Notes under the pieces: generated by a model
What the model was told of the DNA's origin: nothing
Databases searched by the model: none
What the model saw: the letters and a program-made list of their open reading frames with translations, nothing else
In this document: positions 1-13,586 of the stretch, piece by piece
Layout: every line of letters begins with the position of its first letter
Position numbering within the stretch: position 1 is the first letter of the stretch
From: a virus
Strand: one strand, 5' to 3'
Virus record (IMG/VR): IMGVR_UViG_3300030380_000774
Coordinates: 1-20,746 of that record
DNA: 20,746 nt
Position numbers and translations under genes: made by a program

Positions 1-425
1 CAATATCGCCTATTTATCGCCACATCAATACGAGACATTGCATTGTGTAGGCTATCAATAGAAATAGTTGATTTCATAATTTTGTCACTTATAGAAAATT
101 TGGTTTTTTTGCAATCTTTATAAGGTAGGAAATATATATTTTGATATTCAAGATTTACAAGAGCATACACATCAACCATGTTGTCTTTATATCTTCTGTC
201 TTTAGTATGTGAGCCTTTGCGTAAATCAAACCGCCAACTTGATCTGCCCTTCTCTATATGTGTAACTGTTTTCACTTGGCAACGATACATGGTCATATTC
301 CATTCAAACACCACATCGCTGTTAGCACCATGGGGCATTACTGTTACTGTATCGGTTTCTCTCGCTATGCAAGAGCAAGTTAGGTATTCTCCACTCCTAC
401 CTATCCGCTCTGTCTTGCGAGACAT
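1..425 (-). CDS. PD-(D/E)XK nuclease, homing-endonuclease/resolvase-like (C-terminus beyond window)
   Basis: The frame is open from an ATG at 425 to the left edge, 141 codons without a stop, so the protein is incomplete at its C-terminus. Residues that fit a PD-(D/E)XK nuclease core are E13 (in GRSGEYL), D37 (in SDVVFEW) and Q50-V-K52 (in CQVKT), followed by WRFDLR and a hydrophobic strand, VDVYALVNLEYQNIYFLP. From memory, the homing endonuclease I-Ssp6803I has almost the same E/D/Q/K spacing. This family makes double-strand breaks or cuts branched DNA using metal ions. The start overlaps the 3' end of the large ejection-type gene by 29 nt, and the ribosome binding site is weak. A shorter start at 338 would lose E13, so 425 is preferred. 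The fold is fairly sure; whether it is a homing enzyme, a resolvase or a nicking enzyme is not. Confidence 0.72.
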   Translation of the reverse strand, partial: MSRKTERIGRSGEYLTCSCIARETDTVTVMPHGANSDVVFEWNMTMYRCQVKTVTHIEKGRSSWRFDLRKGSHTKDRRYKDNMVDVYALVNLEYQNIYFLPYKDCKKTKFSISDKIMKSTISIDSLHNAMSRIDVAINRRY

Positions 426-3400
426 AATTTTGTAATAATGTTTCCGAAGTAATACCTTTAGAATTAAGTAAAGCCTTTATGTATTTAGGCTGTCTATTAA
501 ATGCAGCTTTTGCAAATTGCTTTTCATTAATTTTATTTTGTTTTATGTAATCATTTGCTGCACCCCTGATTTCTGTGAGAGTTTTTCTTAATATGACCGT
601 TTTAAGTTCGTTTGACGCAGATTGATATTGTTCACTTTGTATTATTACAGGTATAACTGTTTCAACTAAAGGCCCTAAATATTTTGCTCTTGTTTGATCT
701 ACAACAGCATTGCCAGAGTAAGGTAATATATCTCTTCTTTTAAATCCTAATCTATCAAACTCTCTTTCTGCTGCATTCTTTTCTTCTCTAACAGTTGCAC
801 CAGTAAGCTGTCTTACTAAAGGGCCTGGAGCTTCAATATCAGTAAAAGGTATTTGAACTGTATCTGGCCTGCCTGGAGTAGCTTCTCTGGTTGGTGACTC
901 TGATTCTGGAAACTGGTCTCTAACAAAAGGTATGTTAGATTTTAATTGATTGGTTGTATCAGTTAAAAATTCACCTGTCGGTAATGGCCTTCTAAATTGC
1001 TGGTCTTGATCTACAAAATCACCGAACATTCTTATAGGTGTCATATATCCACCAAGAACATTAGCAGTATAATCAGACATAAATTTATTAACTTTTTCTT
1101 CTGTATCTAAACCAGCCATTCCATCTAAAAGATTCTGTACTAACTGCACACTAGCACCAGCTCTAAACTGTGCACCTGATAAACCCTGTAAAACATCTTT
1201 TGCATCTGGTGCACCTCTGCCATTTTCAGATCTAACTACCATATCAGCAACCAATAAATATGGCGTTAATGGAAAGTATGGTCTCATGTCTATTGTTTTT
1301 CCTGATGAAGTTTCTAGTTCATACCATTTATGTTCTTCAGACATTCCTTTTCTTTTAGCTTCAATCATTGTTAAAAGTAAGGTAGTTCCTACTACTGCTT
1401 GCGATAAGGTTTTGTAATCTCCAGCTTTTAACTTAGCAATCTCTTTGGGAGTTAGTAATGCAGAAAAACCTAATGGACTATGCCTAAACTGAAAAGCAAT
1501 AGCGTTGGCCATAAACCTTGGAAATGGTATTACTCCTGTTAATAAAAATGGTGATTTATTAACAGCATCAACGAGACTTTTAATAATAGGAACATCTGGA
1601 GTTTTTGCATAAGTAAAATATAAAGCATCATCAACTGCTTTTTCAATATCAGCTTTGTTTACATATTTTAAAAGATCATCACTTATTCCAACCTTATTTA
1701 TGTCTATGCCTTTTTTAAGTAAAGCATCAGTAATATTGTTTGCAAATACTGCTCTTCTATACCAGAACTCTTGCATCCTATTTAATATATTTAATCCATC
1801 AGTAACTTTTTGACCAACTTTTATAACTCTTGAGGCATTAGATGTTTTTGTAGCGTCTGCTACATCGGAAGAATATCTGGTAAATAAATTTTCTGCATCT
1901 TTTACATAATACTTTGTTAATAAGTCTGTTAAATCTTTGGCTTGTTTTTTGTTCTTTGTTAAATTTAAAATCAATTCAAATGATCTAGCATAATCAACAG
2001 GAGCTTCTTCAGCACCAAACGCTTTTCTAAGAGGATTAAAAGTTTTCTTTAATGTATTGTCAAAAACATCAATCATTGTTTTCATACTAACCCTACCAAG
2101 TTGAGCTGTATTGTTACGCATTGCTGTAGCTATCTGACTAACCAATAAACCCCTTCTTATGTTGTCTGCTTGTTTTATAAAATTATAAAGTTTTGCTGTC
2201 CAAGTTTCTGGTTTTGCTGTCTTTCCTATTTTTTCAGATAGATTTTGAATAGACCTACTTACAGAACTTAATTTTTGCATACGCCTTGCTGAATCTGCAA
2301 TACTTCCTCTAAATAACTGTGATAACTGTGGTAATGTAATATTATTATTTTTAAGAACTGTATCTAATTTTTCTCTTGCAACTGGATTGCCTTCAGCCTG
2401 AAATAAAACTTCCTCTAACTGATCTGATATTCTTACATTTGGATTTCTTGGTATTTCTAAATCATCCATTATTTTAATACCAACCTCAACCAGCCTATCG
2501 TTTAAGTCAACAGTCGTATCAGTTTGAAAGTCTTTACCATCTGGAGATATATCATTTATTGTTCTTGCGGCTGCAATTTCATCCGCATAAGACTCAACTG
2601 GTGGTGATGGATCAAACCTTTCACCAAAGGATTCTGGAGTTGCAACTCCTGTAGACTCAATATCTATAATTTCTTTATAAACGTCATCAACTTCTTGATT
2701 GGTTTTGCCTCTAAAATTTTCTAAGTTAATACCAGCTCTTCTAAATGCACCCTCAACCTCATCATAGTTACGCAATGCTGTATCATATTTAATAAAAGCA
2801 TCTTCAAATTCTGGCAAGACGGGATTTGACTCTAAGATATCTAACGCCTCTTGAGGGGTTAATTTGCCACCTGGAACATTTCTTGCAAAACCCAACTCAC
2901 CTAATAATTCAGCTAGGTTGTCTGCTGTATCTGATATGGCTTCCCCAGTCGCTGCACTTGTTTTTGCATTTTTTGATTTATAAACAAGGGGTAAAGTATC
3001 GGTTGAATATCCTAGTGCAGAAGCAATTTCTTCAAGACCAGGATCATTCATTGGTACACCACGATATAATAAAGAATTAACCCTTTGTATTTTTGGTTCT
3101 TTGGGTGGTATTAATATATCTGGAAGTTTATTGCTTTTAGGTTTTGGTGTTTCTACTTTAGGTAAAGGGGGTTGTGTTATTTGTGCTTTAGGTTGATTAA
3201 CAAAGTCTTTATAATTTTTACCTTTTGTTATTTTTTCTAATTGTTCTTCAAACTTTTTAGGACTTTTATTATAAAAAGAAAAATCTGTTTTAGATAAATA
3301 GCTAGTGTCACCTTTATTTATAGCAGACTGTATTTGTTCTGCGGTTTCATCAAAACTATCTAAATAATCCTTATATGTTGTTTTTCTGTCTAATTTATAA

Positions 3401-4422
3401 CCAGCCACAAAATCTCTAGTAGCTCTTGCTTGATTTTTAGCAAATTCTAAAGGATCATCATCATATAAAGCATAGTTTGGTTTATCTCCACTTTCTATAT
3501 CATTTACAACTTTTGCAAATGGCGACCTTTCTTGTACGGGTGTTTCTACTTTGGGAGTAACAACTTCTGGTTCAACCAAAGTTTCTACTTTACGTTGTGG
3601 TACTTCTAGCATTGGGCCAACCATTTCATTTACTTGTGCTGGTACAGTGTTTTTGTTTTTTACAAAAGAAGCTGCACCCCCTATCGTGCCACCCAACGCT
3701 CCACCCAATCCAGCACCAAGCGTAGCAGCTTTTGCTGATTGCCCCAAATCAAAACCTTCTTGCTGACCAGACATCAATCTGGCTGATTGTCTTAGTGCGT
3801 TATCAACTGTTGAGTAAGTAGCACCTTCTATAGCTCCTATCTTTGCTCCTTGCTTTGCACCCTCTTTAACAAGTTCTTTTATACCTTGTTTGGCTGTTTG
3901 TTTAGCACCCTCTCTTGCAACAAGACCAGCTCCAAATGTTCCTATACCAACATAAGTAGATGGATCAAAAGCAAGTCCTTTTACTAACCTTTTAGTACCA
4001 GCAAGACTGGCTTTCTTGTTGTCATACATATCCATCAAACTAACAAAGTCTTCTCTTTGTTGTTGGTTTGCATTTGTTTTTAAATCAAGAGCCTCTTTAC
4101 CCATTTTAGGTATATTGTAATTAAACCAACCCATGTATCTTAGGGCATAGTCTGCATATTCTTTGTCGGAGTTTAGCTTTTTAACTTCTTTAGAATTTCT
4201 ACCTTCATTCCATTCATAGATACTTTTAGCAGCTCTTATCCATTCTGGATTTTCTTTTAATTCTGCTTCAGATAGTTTTTGATTTTTTTCTGGGACAGGG
4301 GGTAAAACAAAACCATTAGCTGTAATATTTTGTTGTGTAATATCATTAGCTTCTGGTGGAGGTGGTATCTTAAATTTGTTTACTTCCTCATGTGGCGGAG
4401 GCGGTATCTTAAATTCTACCAT
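397..4422 (-). CDS. Giant internal virion / DNA-ejection-type protein, 1341 aa
   Basis: A very long protein at the end of the structural block, probably carried in the capsid or tail and ejected with the DNA; no catalytic motif is recognisable. The N-terminus carries two copies of FKIPPPP (residues 4-10 and 17-23). Residues about 147-252 form a Lys/Ala/Gly-rich stretch ending in glycine-zipper-like GAGLGGALGG, plausibly membrane-inserting. A Pro/Lys-rich linker follows. The C-terminal half is helical, with SQIATAMRNNTAQLGR near 760-775, PFLLTGVIPFPRFMAN and a hydrophobic segment around 1005-1022; this resembles the LPD38-like helical regions of large phage polyvalent proteins (weak match, from memory). 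I start it at ATG 4422, 4 nt after the upstream stop, with AGAG seven bases before it. The frame also extends to a TTG at 4437, but that would overlap the neighbour. The stop overlaps the nuclease start by 29 nt. Confidence 0.8.
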   Translation of the reverse strand: MVEFKIPPPPHEEVNKFKIPPPPEANDITQQNITANGFVLPPVPEKNQKLSEAELKENPEWIRAAKSIYEWNEGRNSKEVKKLNSDKEYADYALRYMGWFNYNIPKMGKEALDLKTNANQQQREDFVSLMDMYDNKKASLAGTKRLVKGLAFDPSTYVGIGTFGAGLVAREGAKQTAKQGIKELVKEGAKQGAKIGAIEGATYSTVDNALRQSARLMSGQQEGFDLGQSAKAATLGAGLGGALGGTIGGAASFVKNKNTVPAQVNEMVGPMLEVPQRKVETLVEPEVVTPKVETPVQERSPFAKVVNDIESGDKPNYALYDDDPLEFAKNQARATRDFVAGYKLDRKTTYKDYLDSFDETAEQIQSAINKGDTSYLSKTDFSFYNKSPKKFEEQLEKITKGKNYKDFVNQPKAQITQPPLPKVETPKPKSNKLPDILIPPKEPKIQRVNSLLYRGVPMNDPGLEEIASALGYSTDTLPLVYKSKNAKTSAATGEAISDTADNLAELLGELGFARNVPGGKLTPQEALDILESNPVLPEFEDAFIKYDTALRNYDEVEGAFRRAGINLENFRGKTNQEVDDVYKEIIDIESTGVATPESFGERFDPSPPVESYADEIAAARTINDISPDGKDFQTDTTVDLNDRLVEVGIKIMDDLEIPRNPNVRISDQLEEVLFQAEGNPVAREKLDTVLKNNNITLPQLSQLFRGSIADSARRMQKLSSVSRSIQNLSEKIGKTAKPETWTAKLYNFIKQADNIRRGLLVSQIATAMRNNTAQLGRVSMKTMIDVFDNTLKKTFNPLRKAFGAEEAPVDYARSFELILNLTKNKKQAKDLTDLLTKYYVKDAENLFTRYSSDVADATKTSNASRVIKVGQKVTDGLNILNRMQEFWYRRAVFANNITDALLKKGIDINKVGISDDLLKYVNKADIEKAVDDALYFTYAKTPDVPIIKSLVDAVNKSPFLLTGVIPFPRFMANAIAFQFRHSPLGFSALLTPKEIAKLKAGDYKTLSQAVVGTTLLLTMIEAKRKGMSEEHKWYELETSSGKTIDMRPYFPLTPYLLVADMVVRSENGRGAPDAKDVLQGLSGAQFRAGASVQLVQNLLDGMAGLDTEEKVNKFMSDYTANVLGGYMTPIRMFGDFVDQDQQFRRPLPTGEFLTDTTNQLKSNIPFVRDQFPESESPTREATPGRPDTVQIPFTDIEAPGPLVRQLTGATVREEKNAAEREFDRLGFKRRDILPYSGNAVVDQTRAKYLGPLVETVIPVIIQSEQYQSASNELKTVILRKTLTEIRGAANDYIKQNKINEKQFAKAAFNRQPKYIKALLNSKGITSETLLQNYVSQDRADR

Positions 4423-4426
4423 GTTA

Positions 4427-5293
4427 TTACTCTGCAATTATGCCATTGCTTATCAACTCATTAATAGCTTGTTCTCTTGTTGTGCCTGGGTTTAAAGCCT
4501 GTGCTTGTTCTACGAGCTGATCAACACTTGTGCCTGAGTAAGCATTATTAACTATTTTATATGTTTTATTGTTATTGTTATTGTTATTTACACCAAACAT
4601 TTGAGTAGCTATTGCTTGATCAAGAGACATAAACCCTTGTTTGTTTATATTATTTTTATAAAAATCTCTTTCTTGTTCTGTTAAATTAGGACTATCAATA
4701 CCCTCATTAAGAACAATGTTTTTAATTTTAGCGGCAGATTCTTTATATATATCTGCTTCTGATTGTGTTTCAGTTACAGTTACTCCAGGAAATACTCTTT
4801 CGTTGTTTCCATCTACATAATATCTATAGCCATCTTTAGCTACAAAAGAATCTCTTTTTTCCGAAGCAGGTAAATTCATGCCAAACAGTTGATTCATTTT
4901 AATCGCGTTTGCATATTGAGGATTGTTTTTAATAAATTCTTCTTGATCTTTCATTAATTGCGCTTGTTTAGCCTGTCTCTCTGCTCTTTCTTTTTGAGCA
5001 TCAAAACCAGCTTTTCTTTGCATAAAACCAGAAGATGCATCTCTACCGCTCAACAAGTCACCAAGAGCAATAAGCATGTTTGCTTTTTGTTGTTTTTTTA
5101 AAAGTTCAGCTTGTGGGTTTGGTTCTTGTACTGGTGGTAAATTTAATGCATCAACTTTTTCATTTGTTTGATTCATATTATTAATCAAACCCTGTAATCT
5201 AAAATCTTGCATTTGATTTGTTGTGATGCCACCATCCATAGGATTGTAGCCACCAGCTTTCATTAAATTAAAAAAGTCATATTGATTTGCCAT
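4427..5293 (-). CDS. Putative internal virion protein, 288 aa
   Basis: I do not recognise a named family. The protein is Gln/Asn/Lys-rich and mostly helical. Residues about 60-75 and 90-125 are charged helices that could form a coiled coil (KKQQKANMLIALGDLL, then QKERAERQAKQAQLMKDQEE). A short beta-like segment, DGYRYYVDGNNERVFPG, lies near 154-170, and a run of seven asparagines at 236-242 precedes the last 46 residues. It starts in a TAATG overlap with the S74-domain gene upstream and ends 4 nt before the ATG of the giant protein downstream. A mid-sized helical protein directly before a giant one is the layout of ejection proteins in short-tailed phages. That role rests on position and composition only. 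Confidence 0.7.
   Translation of the reverse strand: MANQYDFFNLMKAGGYNPMDGGITTNQMQDFRLQGLINNMNQTNEKVDALNLPPVQEPNPQAELLKKQQKANMLIALGDLLSGRDASSGFMQRKAGFDAQKERAERQAKQAQLMKDQEEFIKNNPQYANAIKMNQLFGMNLPASEKRDSFVAKDGYRYYVDGNNERVFPGVTVTETQSEADIYKESAAKIKNIVLNEGIDSPNLTEQERDFYKNNINKQGFMSLDQAIATQMFGVNNNNNNNKTYKIVNNAYSGTSVDQLVEQAQALNPGTTREQAINELISNGIIAE
4568..4588. repeat. ATTGTT hexanucleotide microsatellite (Asn run)
   Basis: On the + strand ATTGTT occurs three times in tandem followed by ATT. On the coding (minus) strand it encodes alternating AAC and AAT asparagine codons, giving N236-N242 of the 288-aa protein. Adding or losing one 6-bp unit would change the protein by two residues without breaking the frame. 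Confidence 0.8.
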
Positions 5294-6378
5294 TATAAAG
5301 CTCCGTAATTGACCATGTAATAACCATTGTCATCTTTAATTACTGCTTCAGGCATATATTTCTTAACCTCTTGAGCAATAACACCAATTGTTGGATTGTT
5401 TACTCCAAGCTCTTTAGCTTTGTTGTTCCAGTCCCATGTATATACATTGTGTCCGTTTTCAGATGTACCAATAAATTTAATATTTTCTTTTAACCTTTCA
5501 TCAGATTGTCCCAGAAAATACATACCAGCTAGTTGAGCACCCGCACCTAATATATCTCCTAACCCAGAGCTTTTTTGACTGGTTGTAGTTGATGACACTG
5601 GCATACCTGATGCTGCACCTGTTAATAAACTAAATCTTCTAAAGGGATCGTCATATCCTCTTAAGAACTCGTTATAACCAAAGTCTAATCCTGCTTGGTC
5701 TAATCCTTGTTGTTGATTTCCTATACCAGATAATAAACCAAAGTTTTGATATTGGTCTGCTAACTGGTTTCCGTATAAACCAGCTTGGAATTGTCTATTT
5801 TGCATGTCAAGACCAGAATTAAATCTATCAGCGTTATACTGTCTATCAATGTCTCGCCCAGCTAAGTTTGTTGCTCTATCATAACCTTGTGTTCTAAGTT
5901 TTGATGAAATGTCACCTGCTTGGTCAAAGAAATTTTTATTTGTTTCAGACTCTAATATGGCTGAACGAGAACCACCAAATGCACCTCTACCTATTGCAGC
6001 ATCTTGATCTCTATTTAACTGCATTAACCTTGCATCATCTAGGTCTTGCATTGTTTTATCTATAACTTGTTCAGTAAATGGATTTTGGTATGCACCTATA
6101 TCAGCATCTAATAAAGATTGAACATTTACAGATTGTGGGCCTTGTCCTGCTAGTTCATTTAATTGACTTCTAGGATCAAATCCAAAAGATTTGTCAAACA
6201 TATTTCTTGCTTGGTCTTGTATAAACAATTGGTCATCTGTAAATCCTGCAACACCTTGACCTGTAAAAGGTTGAAATGGTGTGTTATATAATGCCTTTCC
6301 TTGATTATACACATCATTAAAGATTGCCATTTGTTGTGGATCGACTGTAGTTCCTGTTGTGGTTTTTCCTTTACTCAT
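5293..6378 (-). CDS. Internal virion-like protein with C-terminal S74 chaperone domain, 361 aa
   Basis: Residues 1-250 are Gln/Asn/Asp/Arg-rich and helical, with GAFGGSR at 132-138, a stretch typical of internal or injection proteins in marine short-tailed phages. A small hydrophobic segment (LGDILGAGAQLAGMYFLG, 273-290) leads directly into an S74-type domain (PF13884) at 292-361: SDERLKENI, VYTWDWN, GVIAQEV and a final YYMVNYGAL. The SDxRLK motif keeps the Ser and Lys that, from memory, form the self-cleavage dyad of endosialidase-type chaperones. The C-terminal coiled coil seen in the two fibre proteins is absent. Databases would probably call this a tail fibre domain protein, but the N-terminal region and location favour an internal or neck role. 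It starts in an ATGA overlap with the gene upstream and ends in a TAATG overlap with the next. Confidence 0.82.
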   Translation of the reverse strand: MSKGKTTTGTTVDPQQMAIFNDVYNQGKALYNTPFQPFTGQGVAGFTDDQLFIQDQARNMFDKSFGFDPRSQLNELAGQGPQSVNVQSLLDADIGAYQNPFTEQVIDKTMQDLDDARLMQLNRDQDAAIGRGAFGGSRSAILESETNKNFFDQAGDISSKLRTQGYDRATNLAGRDIDRQYNADRFNSGLDMQNRQFQAGLYGNQLADQYQNFGLLSGIGNQQQGLDQAGLDFGYNEFLRGYDDPFRRFSLLTGAASGMPVSSTTTSQKSSGLGDILGAGAQLAGMYFLGQSDERLKENIKFIGTSENGHNVYTWDWNNKAKELGVNNPTIGVIAQEVKKYMPEAVIKDDNGYYMVNYGAL

Positions 6379-8460: not shown

Positions 8461-9957
8461 TTAGTTCTCCAATGCTTCTACTTTTTCTTCTAGTATTTCT
8501 ATTTTTGTTATTGCTTCTTGTAAGGCTTTAGTTAAAAGTGGAACAAGTTTTGAAGCATCCATATTTTGGTATACAGGAACTTCTTTTTCTGCATACCAAG
8601 TAGAGCCTTTTAATTCTTCGTCTGGATTTTCTGTTTCTGCGTTCCATTTGGCTTTTAATGTATTAAATTCATCTTCTTCAACACCCCATTTCCAAACATT
8701 ACCGTTTTTCCCAAGAACAACATTTTGTTTTATTTCGGTTGCATCCTTAGTACCTTGAACAGCTATTGGAACAATACTGCTAACTTCGTGAGCCAAAAAT
8801 CCTTCAACAGTTATACTAGAATTATTTTTCCAATTAAATTTTGCTGGTTTTAATTTTTTAATTTCTGTTGTTGCATCAAAATCATAATTTACATTTTCTT
8901 TAAGTCTATAATCAGATGATGTGTTATAAGCTGTTGTATTAGCACTACCATTAACCGTAATACTTCCACTAGCTTGGTTATCTCCATCAGTAAATGCAAT
9001 AGCAGTATTAGTACCTGTGCTTTTAGATTTAACCGACATGGTTGTACTATTTGTTTGTCCTGCAACATGAACAGCAACATTACCTGTAACGCTTGTTTCT
9101 CCATAATTAAAATTAATAGCTTGTGTATTTCCATTAAACCTTACTTGTTCTTCACCATTAGTAATAAAACTTAAAGCATTATTACTGTTAGAGTATTGAA
9201 TAGAACCTATACTATCGGTATTTTGTACATCTGGACTGGTTTGTACTGCTTTATTAAATTGAATTTTGCTAACTCCACTTGGAGAGGCGTGGTTTGCTCC
9301 AGAATGAAGCGTTAAGGTTGCATTAACATTGTTGTATATTAATAAGTCGCCTGTATCACTGTTTGTACCATAACCATATCCACCATTAGCAATTTGTAAT
9401 CCTGTTCCTGTATTAGAGTTAGATGCTACAGAAGCACCATTAGAACCCATACCAACTACAGTTCCGTTATATACAAAGTTAGTTTCAGCTTCTAAAGTAT
9501 GAGCTGTACCACTTCCTGTAATAACTTTGTTGTCGGCATTATTGTTAATTGTTGTAGTGTTTATAGTTGCAAAAGATAAATTACCAGAACCATCAGTTTT
9601 AATAACCTGGTTAGCACTTCCATCTGCTGTAGGTAATTTCCATATTTGATCTGCGGAAAGTGTTGGTGCTTCAAAACCAACAAAGTTAGCACCTTCATAG
9701 AATCTCAATTCATTAGATGAACCATTTAAAGATACTGTATTTGAGAAATTGGCAGCACCAGTTGAGGTTAAAGTTCCTGCAACTGAAAGAGTTTTACCAC
9801 TACCAACATTTAATCCAACGCTAGTACCACTACCATTAGCGGTAAATAAACCATCAACTGAATCTAGGTTTGTGTTTAGTTTTGTACCCCAAGTATTAGT
9901 GGAGCTTCCTACTTCGGGTTTTGTTAAATTTAAGTTAGTTGTAAATGTATCTGCCAT
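8461..9957 (-). CDS. Second tail fibre with S74 chaperone domain, 498 aa
   Basis: The N-terminus ([15 protein letters not shown], then [18 protein letters not shown]) is nearly the same as that of the 1052-aa fibre and is probably the module that docks on the tail. The middle is Ser/Thr/Asn/Gly-rich and beta-helix-like. Residues 343-498 form an S74 intramolecular chaperone: [28 protein letters not shown] and a C-terminal coiled coil ([25 protein letters not shown]). Compared with the other fibre, this domain carries an extra ~50-residue Trp-rich insert ([13 protein letters not shown]...[12 protein letters not shown]). Such chaperones trimerise the fibre and usually cut themselves off at the SDxRLK motif. 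ATG 9957 has only a weak Shine-Dalgarno, so it may be translated by coupling with the 35-aa peptide gene that ends 6 nt upstream. Confidence 0.88.
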
Positions 9958-10427: not shown

Positions 10428-13400
10428 TTATTCTCCTTTTAAGTTAGCAATTTCACTTTTTAGTGATTCTATTTGTTCTTGTTGTTCTTGTACTGCTTTA
10501 ATTAATGGAGTGACAAGTTTGCTGTAATCCATTTGGTAATATCCATCATCACCTTTGCTGACAGAATTAGGTACAATTTCTTCAACTTCTTGAGCTATTA
10601 AACCCTCATCAGATTTATTATCTGCTTTCCAATTATAAGCTACTGGGTTGAGTTTGTTAATGATTTCTAAACCTTTTGCTTCACCTGTAACATCTTTTAG
10701 TCTTGCATCTGAAGATGTGTTATATGTGGTTGCTGAAGAAGTTACATTAATACTTCCAACTTTTGTTCCGCTTTTGCTGAGTCTTATAACCTCTCCATCA
10801 AAAGCACAACGATTAGCATATAAAGCAACACCAGTACCATTCAGGCCACTAGCAATCTGTATATTATTATCTTGTATCGATACACCCTCTTCACTAGATT
10901 GGTTGTGTAAAGTAGAAGTAGTAGTACCAACTAATAGGTTTCCACTAGCATCTATCCTAGCTTTTTCAGAACCACTTTGATAAAACATAGTGTTATGAGC
11001 TTTAATATGCATATCTTCCCAAGCAGCAAAACCTGTAGCTTGTGAAGATATTGATAGTTCACTTGTTGAACCTTTTATTTCCAAAAGTGCATTTGTTCCA
11101 TCATCACAATAAATATATTTTTGTGAGTTTGAAGATTTTATGTCTAATTGTGCAACACTTGGAGTACCACCAATACCTAATCGCCCACTAAAATCTAGTC
11201 TCATTTTTTCAGAACCGCCATGCTCCCATCTATGACCGCCTGAACTTGCATTAACTGCATTATAAGCAACTCCACCAGCTCCTAGTTGTTCTATATCAAA
11301 ATAATATGTGCTGTCAAAAGCTAGTCTTAAAGTTCTACCTGATTGTGCTGAATTATTTTCTGCATGAATTGCTACTGCTGGCGAAGTAGTTCCCAGTCCT
11401 AATCGTCCAGAGCTATCTAGTCTCATACGTTCACTACTACCAGTTTTAAATGCTAGTGTTGCAGTAGTTGCACGATATATAGCTTCAGTTGCACCTGTAG
11501 CACTACTGTTTTGAGCAAATTGATATGTGTCTGCTTGTGCTTTACCTGAAAGGTAGAGGTCTTTGAATCTTGTACCTGATTCACCAATATCTATTACGCC
11601 ATTTGTAGCAGCAGAACCGCTATGTGGTCTTATTGATGGACTATCTCCACTATCAAAGAATAAATATGTGTCATCTGAACCAACAATTAATCTTCCACCT
11701 TGAGCACCAATACTTCCAACTATTGAACTATCTTTTCTGAAATCTAAAATAGTTCCATCAGATGTAAGCCTGTTAAAGCTACCTACTAAATTACCATCTC
11801 TAGTTGCATAGAAGAAGTTTGAAGCACCTAAACCAATTCCAGCATTATCATTATTAAATGATGTATTACCAACTAATAAATTCCTATTACTATCTATGAC
11901 AGCACTTACAGAACCATTGGTCTCAAAATATATATTGGCGTTTTCTCTTTGAACTATATAAGCATCTGAACCGCCTACGCCAATGTCAAAACCATCACCA
12001 GTAGTAAAACCAGTAGTTGAATTACGAAATCCTGCTAAACCATTTACTGTTAGAGGTCTAGCTGGGGAACTTGTACCTATTCCTACCCTATCATTACCGC
12101 CATCAACAAACAGCATGTGCGTATTGTTATCTGACTCAACTCTAAAGTCTCGGTCTTGTCCACCATCGTTAATTACAAATTCACCGTCTTGTTTAATGGT
12201 TAAACGACTTTTTCCACCTTGTACAATTCTATATGAACTAGAATTAAAGTAACCAACATCACTAACTATACCAGTATAAAAATTCTTGCTAGTTTCTCCG
12301 CTTGCATAACTAGAATCATATATGTTAGCAACTCCAGCAGTAGTTCCAACAAAGCCTATTACTTTGTGTTGAGTTGCATTTGTTGTGCTAAAACCACCGT
12401 CTATGGAAACAGAAATTATATTATTATTTGAAATAGCACCAAGCGAACCTGTAGTACCTATTGAAAGTGGTGAACTTGGTGAAGTTGTGCCGATTCCTAA
12501 TCCTGTTGGAGTTAATCTTGCACCCTCACCAACTCCCGTATCCATGATTATTGAACCATTGGAATCAGATTCTATTTTGCCATAATTACTAAGACCTGAG
12601 TTGTATATTCTGTAAGATTTACCTCTAAAATCAACAGTTGCTTCTACTATACCTGTTACATCTAAACCTGTTGAGTTTAATCTAGCTTTTTCAGAACCAT
12701 TTGCATAAAAACGCATAGCGTTTATTGAGTTTTGATAATAGATACCTTCACCAGTATTAGATGCACTATTACCTACCCAGCCAGCATTTGTGTCGCCAGC
12801 AATAATAATTCCATTATGGCTTGAATCACTATCTTTAAATCTTGCTAAATTTCCACCACTCGCATTTGCTAAATCTAATGCATATGCTGGGGAAGCTGTG
12901 CCTATGCCAACTTTATTATTCTGATTAGTACCAGCAGCATCAACACCAAATAAAATATCTTTACCTGAACCACCTGTATTATAAATTCTTAAATCATCCC
13001 CAGCATGATTGACTTTGAAGAAACTACCAGTATCACTTCTCCCAATATTTAAACTTATTTCATTTCCATTTGCAGCTCTTACATCAAGTTTAGCTGCTGG
13101 TGCTGTCGTACCGATTCCTAAAGACTCAGCACTAGCATCCCAGTATAGAGCTTTGCTAGTTCCTGTATCTTCAAAGAAGGCTATATCTCCGCTATGTTCT
13201 ACAGATAATCTATCACGCAGTCCGCCTTGATCTGGCCTTCCTGTTCTTACAAATAAAGTCTGCTTACCAAATGAGTCTGAAGTAGATTTTAATTCTATAT
13301 CCTCAGCAGCACCGCTAGTATCGTTAGTTGAAAAAACAATTTTTCCAGCTAAAGCACCATTGCTTATGCCTGTTGTTGTGTTATTTAAAGTAAGCGTTCC

Positions 13401-13586
13401 TCCACTTGTTGTTTCTACAGTCAACCCATCCATTGTTACTGTACCCATAGATACAGCCGTTCCACCTAATCCAAAAATTGCATCAAGTGCATCTAAGTCT
13501 GCATTAAGCGAAATACCCCAAGTATCTTCAGCCGCACCTGGCTCTGGTTTTCTTAAGTTTAAATTCGTTGTAAATGTGTCTGCCAT
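10428..13586 (-). CDS. Main tail fibre with S74 chaperone domain, 1052 aa
   Basis: Residues 1-45 ([33 protein letters not shown]) form the tail-docking module shared with the second fibre. The shaft is built of irregular repeats around a (M/A)R(L/I)D..G.L.(I/V)GTTSP core, for example MRLDSSGRLGLGTTSP, KVGIGTASP, RVGIGTSSP and MRLDFSGRLGIGG, at least eight copies across 10905-13127; this suggests a trimeric beta-helix or knobbed shaft that would bind the host surface. Residues about 954-1052 are an S74 chaperone: SSDARLKDV, AYNWKAD, GLIAQEVEEIVP, YQMDYSKLVTPLIKAVQEQ and a terminal coiled coil. The SDxRLK Ser and Lys of the proposed cleavage dyad are present. ATG directly follows the TAG of the upstream gene and AAAGG lies 9 bases before it. 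Confidence 0.9.
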   Translation of the reverse strand: MADTFTTNLNLRKPEPGAAEDTWGISLNADLDALDAIFGLGGTAVSMGTVTMDGLTVETTSGGTLTLNNTTTGISNGALAGKIVFSTNDTSGAAEDIELKSTSDSFGKQTLFVRTGRPDQGGLRDRLSVEHSGDIAFFEDTGTSKALYWDASAESLGIGTTAPAAKLDVRAANGNEISLNIGRSDTGSFFKVNHAGDDLRIYNTGGSGKDILFGVDAAGTNQNNKVGIGTASPAYALDLANASGGNLARFKDSDSSHNGIIIAGDTNAGWVGNSASNTGEGIYYQNSINAMRFYANGSEKARLNSTGLDVTGIVEATVDFRGKSYRIYNSGLSNYGKIESDSNGSIIMDTGVGEGARLTPTGLGIGTTSPSSPLSIGTTGSLGAISNNNIISVSIDGGFSTTNATQHKVIGFVGTTAGVANIYDSSYASGETSKNFYTGIVSDVGYFNSSSYRIVQGGKSRLTIKQDGEFVINDGGQDRDFRVESDNNTHMLFVDGGNDRVGIGTSSPARPLTVNGLAGFRNSTTGFTTGDGFDIGVGGSDAYIVQRENANIYFETNGSVSAVIDSNRNLLVGNTSFNNDNAGIGLGASNFFYATRDGNLVGSFNRLTSDGTILDFRKDSSIVGSIGAQGGRLIVGSDDTYLFFDSGDSPSIRPHSGSAATNGVIDIGESGTRFKDLYLSGKAQADTYQFAQNSSATGATEAIYRATTATLAFKTGSSERMRLDSSGRLGLGTTSPAVAIHAENNSAQSGRTLRLAFDSTYYFDIEQLGAGGVAYNAVNASSGGHRWEHGGSEKMRLDFSGRLGIGGTPSVAQLDIKSSNSQKYIYCDDGTNALLEIKGSTSELSISSQATGFAAWEDMHIKAHNTMFYQSGSEKARIDASGNLLVGTTTSTLHNQSSEEGVSIQDNNIQIASGLNGTGVALYANRCAFDGEVIRLSKSGTKVGSINVTSSATTYNTSSDARLKDVTGEAKGLEIINKLNPVAYNWKADNKSDEGLIAQEVEEIVPNSVSKGDDGYYQMDYSKLVTPLIKAVQEQQEQIESLKSEIANLKGE

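Follow-up and report, generated by a model that had tools for sequence, protein, structure and literature searches.

The window, i.e., the whole stretch of DNA analyzed here, is a 20,746-bp virus fragment from a marine phage, with no sequence to the left of position 1. At this edge, on the minus strand, lies a stand-alone gene (positions 3 to 425) for a predicted endonuclease of the PDDEXK_5 family with an I-Ssp6803I-like fold. The ATG of this gene is at position 425 and the frame remains open down to position 3, where it runs off the contig, so that 141 amino acids are visible and the C-terminus is cut off by the contig end. The full-length relatives comprise 132-159 amino acids, so that no more than about 18 residues are missing from the C-terminus of the window nuclease. 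The gene is shortened by the contig end and is not a pseudogene, its visible part being intact. The dN/dS values between copies of the nuclease, about 0.07-0.30, indicate purifying selection.

The first 29 nt of the nuclease gene (397 to 425, minus strand) overlap the final gene of a variable ejection block at its 3' end, in agreement with the preliminary description of this DNA, which had called the nuclease a stand-alone gene overlapping the 3' end of a virion gene. This upstream gene (397 to 4437, minus strand) encodes a predicted internal virion or ejection protein of 1346 amino acids, with a partial match to the 'putative internal virion D' of phage LUZ100; in the relatives, eight other families, all unrelated, take its place. 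On the same strand, it is preceded by a second variable gene of the block (4427 to 5293, 288 amino acids), to which an ejection-related function is attributed from its position, and by a DNA ejection protein-like gene with a Peptidase_S74 C-terminus (5293 to 6378, minus strand; phrog_4287, E = 5.7e-33; PF13884). Positions 397 to 6378 and the equivalent blocks constitute a hypervariable ejection cassette flanked by conserved genes. The 5' end of the nuclease gene contains a 14-nt stretch, ATAGGTAGGAGTGG (391 to 404, minus strand), which hardly varies among the related copies compared; it sits just within the exchange junction that coincides with the overlap (see below) and provides the stop codon with which the overlapping upstream gene ends. 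Elsewhere in the window, two tail-fibre-like genes (8461 to 9957 and 10428 to 13586) possess a common N-terminal module, the second of them being greatly expanded, and their C-terminal parts are similar to each other and resemble the S74 chaperone domain.

Family membership and predicted fold

The window nuclease scores 26.7 bits (E = 6.3e-6) with the Pfam family PF11645, PDDEXK_5, just above the curated cut-off of 26.1 bits, and matches phrog_5018 (E = 7e-12), which is currently annotated as being of unknown function. In IMG/VR, 58 homologous nuclease loci were identified. Two alignments were constructed, namely A1, with 18 members that show 57-74% identity to the window nuclease, and A2, with 15 diverse members, the identity of which to the window nuclease goes down to 36%. 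All 15 members of A2 match PDDEXK_5 at E <= 0.1, and several of the relatives individually fall under the curated cut-off of this family. Four residues are invariant throughout both alignments: the acidic residue E13 of helix 1 (codon at 387 to 389), D37 (315 to 317), and Q50 and K52, which together with V51 (270 to 278; all on the minus strand) make up QxK, one half of the PD-(D/E)XK site. The preliminary description had read these residues, at these positions, in a PD-(D/E)XK nuclease frame leaving the window, and both the frame, by virtue of the Pfam and PHROG matches and the 58 loci, and the residue positions proved to be correct. A scan of the genomes of bacterial and archaeal species yielded only one nuclease locus, itself phage-like, and a tblastn search of 50,697 phage records with the window nuclease and two diverged relatives yielded nothing convincing. 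Matches to the Pfam family C2c1_helical and to Cas12b structures in the PDB were under the cut-off and were discarded as chance.

I-Ssp6803I (PDB 2OST) is a PD-(D/E)XK homing endonuclease of Synechocystis, where it is encoded by the group I intron of tRNA-fMet. When the family profile was compared with all PDB sequences, the sole chain matched was that of I-Ssp6803I; the match is weak (E = 0.039) and not significant by itself, and in it the D and QxK residues align one-to-one with 2OST, with no offset (D37 with D36, and Q50 and K52 with Q49 and K51). To judge from the overall superposition, E13 probably corresponds to E11 of I-Ssp6803I. An AlphaFold2 model of the nuclease, for which the family alignment was used as the input, reached a pLDDT of 86 and a pTM of 0.82. 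The four 2OST chains occupied ranks 1 to 4 in a Foldseek search with this model, and VIA-align gave a Z score of 13.3 over 133 residues for 2OST, 9.9 for the DREN domain of SPARDA, 9.1 for Hjc and about 6.7 for RecU; both resolvases score well below I-Ssp6803I, and a common fold does not by itself reveal the function. The predicted core fold and the D and QxK residues fit the PD-(D/E)XK superfamily, to which we assign the nuclease on the strength of the model. The I-Ssp6803I-like spacing that had been noted from the letters alone is thus borne out, and in the structural comparison of the protein I-Ssp6803I ranks ahead of the resolvases.

Apart from the predicted fold, the nuclease resembles I-Ssp6803I in size, in the D/QxK spacing and in the match to PDDEXK_5, but the sequence identity is 12-14%, and I-Ssp6803I is intron-encoded whereas the window nuclease is the product of a phage late-block gene that is present throughout its lineage. 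No group I intron was matched in Rfam at the gathering score in nine sources (the window and eight related loci), and the nuclease gene abuts protein-coding genes directly; it is free-standing, without an intron, and in this respect departs from the intron-encoded I-Ssp6803I type. Hjc and RecU share the PD-(D/E)XK core with the nuclease but give lower Z scores and carry ExK, the usual form in Hjc-type resolvases, where the window nuclease has QxK. A phage counterpart is the unannotated ORF PfWMP3_29 of Phormidium phage Pf-WMP3 (L188:29930-30313), which likewise belongs to phrog_5018 and PDDEXK_5 and is a stand-alone gene, located between the genes for tail tubular protein B and an internal virion protein; unlike the window nuclease, it comes from a T7-like cyanophage and has no adjoining integrase, and the relationship is remote (22% over the structural alignment). 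The second-best fold match, the DREN domain (DUF4365) of SPARDA, shows the same D...QxK pattern; for DREN, a resemblance to I-Ssp6803I and the use of D41, Q60 and K62 have been reported (PMC12205087), but it is one domain within a short-Argonaute defence protein, the activity of which is collateral, whereas the window nuclease is a single small phage protein.

Exchange boundary and genomic distribution

In 79 loci, nine unrelated families of genes were found directly upstream of the nuclease. Identical nuclease proteins stand next to 2-4 different families among these, and the upstream joint is located between -29 and +16 nt relative to the nuclease start codon. In the main clade, the distances between nucleases track those of the downstream integrase (rho 0.74) and PDDEXK_15 (rho 0.78) genes, whereas the correlation with the genes upstream is only 0.19-0.37. 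There is a sharp exchange boundary at the nuclease start codon, and the recombination point between phages that the preliminary description had proposed for this locus is accordingly upheld. The junctions between g6736 and g6375 and between g6375 and g5293 are poorly correlated as well (0.33 each). General mosaicism, which is seen at these other joints of the genomes, would explain the sharp junction and the linkage to the downstream genes equally well, and the boundary need not be due to the nuclease. The location of nuclease genes at exchange boundaries is a pattern described in other phages, where several nuclease families are found repeatedly (PMC10448857); a text search of that article for PDDEXK terms returned none.

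On the downstream side, the relatives contain tRNA halves immediately past the nuclease stop codon, followed by a tyrosine integrase gene. These attP-like halves are of at least five types (L018:8481-8520, L002:8475-8530, L048:8418-8530, L103:6848-6960 and L104:16936-17050). A 5' half of tRNA-Pro, matched to annotated tRNA-Pro genes, is present in many loci; by eye, we further recognize a tRNA-Glu 5' half and one more 5' half past the nuclease, as well as probable 3' halves of the fMet and Val tRNAs in L103 and L104. Being short, the halves give no tRNA call against Rfam at the gathering score. The succession of tRNA halves and integrase corresponds to an attP layout, so that the phages of the nuclease lineage are probably temperate. 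One relative, G001, has a length of 36,109 bp and a terminal repeat of 127 bp and looks complete; its genes, named partly from their position, run from the terminases, portal, capsid and tail through the ejection block and the nuclease to attP, the integrase and the replication genes. The C-terminal tail of the nuclease, and only the tail, varies with the attP type. In the second clade and in L167 and L168, the nuclease is present without an integrase or a tRNA half, and the idea that it serves as a partner of the integrase is therefore unlikely.

The presence of the gene was assessed through a search with the conserved tail gene g6963, which is independent of the nuclease, among contigs with at least 7 kb of downstream sequence. 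The nuclease is found in all 26 informative contigs, in a constant place 4.1-6.9 kb past g6963, and the contigs without it in this search have less downstream DNA. In the window's own lineage, the nuclease is a core, colinear gene, and no empty target allele is seen among the 26 contigs. At the family level, the picture is one of movement. In a second phage type, the nuclease gene is located between the lysozyme and a tail gene in L136 and L163, and members of the same family (80-100% identity) also occur in L155-L161, where copies with 80-85% identity follow the ejection block and are succeeded by an unrelated integrase. The lysozyme gene directly adjoins the tail gene, leaving the slot empty, in L195, L196 and other relatives of the second type, and the same slot holds a divergent PDDEXK_5 gene in L198, L204 and L213; in four records without a gene in the slot, PDDEXK_5 had no match elsewhere in the sequence covered. 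The non-homologous places and the empty or refilled slot imply that the nuclease family moves and turns over. The preliminary description had suggested a mobile gene that related phages might lack at this junction; for the window's own lineage, the universal and colinear presence of the gene in 26 of 26 contigs speaks against this suggestion, and it stands at the family level, where the slot is filled or empty within the second phage type.

Other nuclease genes are encoded in these genomes. Additional PD-(D/E)XK genes (L178:9921-10343, minus strand; L179:6111-6476; L270:14816-15277, minus strand) are of several kinds: the main clade has PDDEXK_15 next to its replication genes, the second clade has a gene close to the holin that matches PDDEXK_15 weakly, and the second phage type has PDDEXK_14. 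A staphylococcal-nuclease-like gene is found at L276:9809-10189 and L278:14593-14973 as well as in L200, L215, L217, L219, L234 and L235; it is possible that it functionally replaces the PDDEXK_5 gene.

Possible roles of the nuclease

Neither the fold family nor the presence of nucleases at exchange boundaries is new; the novelty lies in a widespread, stand-alone core gene with the I-Ssp6803I fold that is located between a hypervariable ejection cassette and attP. The I-Ssp6803I-type nucleases are thereby extended from one characterized intron enzyme to a large, strongly conserved stand-alone family of marine phages, which places a nuclease exactly at the junction of swapped DNA-injection genes and integration modules. 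The closest parallels in genome context are the Seg enzymes of T4 and other boundary HEGs, which are likewise stand-alone nucleases adjoining virion genes at an exchange boundary (PMC2988022, PMC10448857), with both filled and empty slots within one related phage type; in contrast to the window nuclease, these have GIY-YIG, HNH or T5orf172 folds, and the window nuclease is universal in its own lineage.

Our preferred reading, held tentatively and with somewhat less than even confidence, is that the nuclease is a free-standing site-specific endonuclease, now a resident core gene in its own lineage; we infer both cleavage and specificity. I-Ssp6803I is a tetramer, and the window nuclease might similarly assemble as a multimer, expressed late together with the ejection genes, with catalysis by D37, Q50 and K52 (plus E13) and Mg2+. 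In mixed infections, the enzyme would cut the DNA of related phages or phage alleles at a long, specific site, and the repair of the cut would copy the nuclease along with its flank, as is the case for the Seg enzymes in intronless homing and marker exclusion; both processes have been described for free-standing endonucleases of T4 (PMC2988022). In its own lineage, the nuclease would have become resident, and elsewhere the family occupies other slots, turns over or is absent. Points against this reading are the presence of the gene in all informative contigs of its own lineage and the strength of the purifying selection, which speaks for a gene that benefits the phage directly and does not only spread selfishly.

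The boundary itself may be ordinary mosaicism with the conserved gene as a homology anchor, and that the nuclease is such a passive anchor between two swapped modules, its enzymatic role being unrelated to the boundary, appears to us a serious possibility, although one to which we give less weight than to a site-specific endonuclease. The similarly poor correlation at the other block junctions and the homology provided by the conserved 14-nt stretch at the 5' end of the gene are consistent with this explanation; the recurrence of nuclease genes of several families at such boundaries (PMC10448857) and the sharpness of the joint argue against it. It concerns the boundary alone and is compatible with any biochemical role proposed here. 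Whether modular exchange is driven by nuclease genes, or whether these simply persist at its seams, becomes testable with a single small protein.

With respect to the biochemical role, a late debranching or packaging nuclease akin to Holliday junction resolvases, which would clear branched replication intermediates before packaging, would account for the universal presence of the gene under purifying selection in its own lineage and for its position, which closes the late gene block. Among the next fold matches are Hjc and RecU, and RusA, considered as a replacement resolvase, is absent from all 14 related records checked. We nevertheless regard this role as unlikely given that I-Ssp6803I is clearly the better fold match, that the site is QxK and not ExK, that the genomes of the lineage encode other PD-(D/E)XK proteins, such as PDDEXK_15, and that some relatives of the second type lack the nuclease altogether. 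Less likely still, in our estimate, is a non-specific or broad DNase directed against host or competitor DNA, possibly packaged in the virion beside the ejection proteins. Such a function would agree with the location of the gene within or beside the tail and ejection block in three phage types, including Pf-WMP3, and with the fold match to DREN, which ranks second and is a collateral nuclease whose D/Q/K site is the same (PMC12205087). The staphylococcal-nuclease-like gene, which is found in the late region of some non-carriers and in none of the checked carriers, could be interpreted in the same vein, but this swap involves few genomes with limited flanks, and the nuclease distances track the downstream integrase and replication genes and not the ejection genes.

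The attP next to the nuclease consists of tRNA halves (Pro, Glu, probably fMet and Val, and a fifth), and I-Ssp6803I acts on the anticodon region of tRNA-fMet. For the former reason, we considered that the nuclease acts at the anticodon regions of tRNA genes, where it might cut the host attB and so aid integration or exclude rivals; if so, the integrase and the tRNA site would be the swapped partner module of the nuclease. We consider this highly improbable, and simple tRNA-specific targeting is disfavored by the occurrence of both types of the central part of the nuclease with tRNA-Pro and with tRNA-Glu attP. One nuclease allele (L044:8001-8480) is itself a mosaic, with the N- and C-terminal parts of one type and the center (about residues 60-115) of another, which suggests, from the sequence, an exchange inside the nuclease gene.
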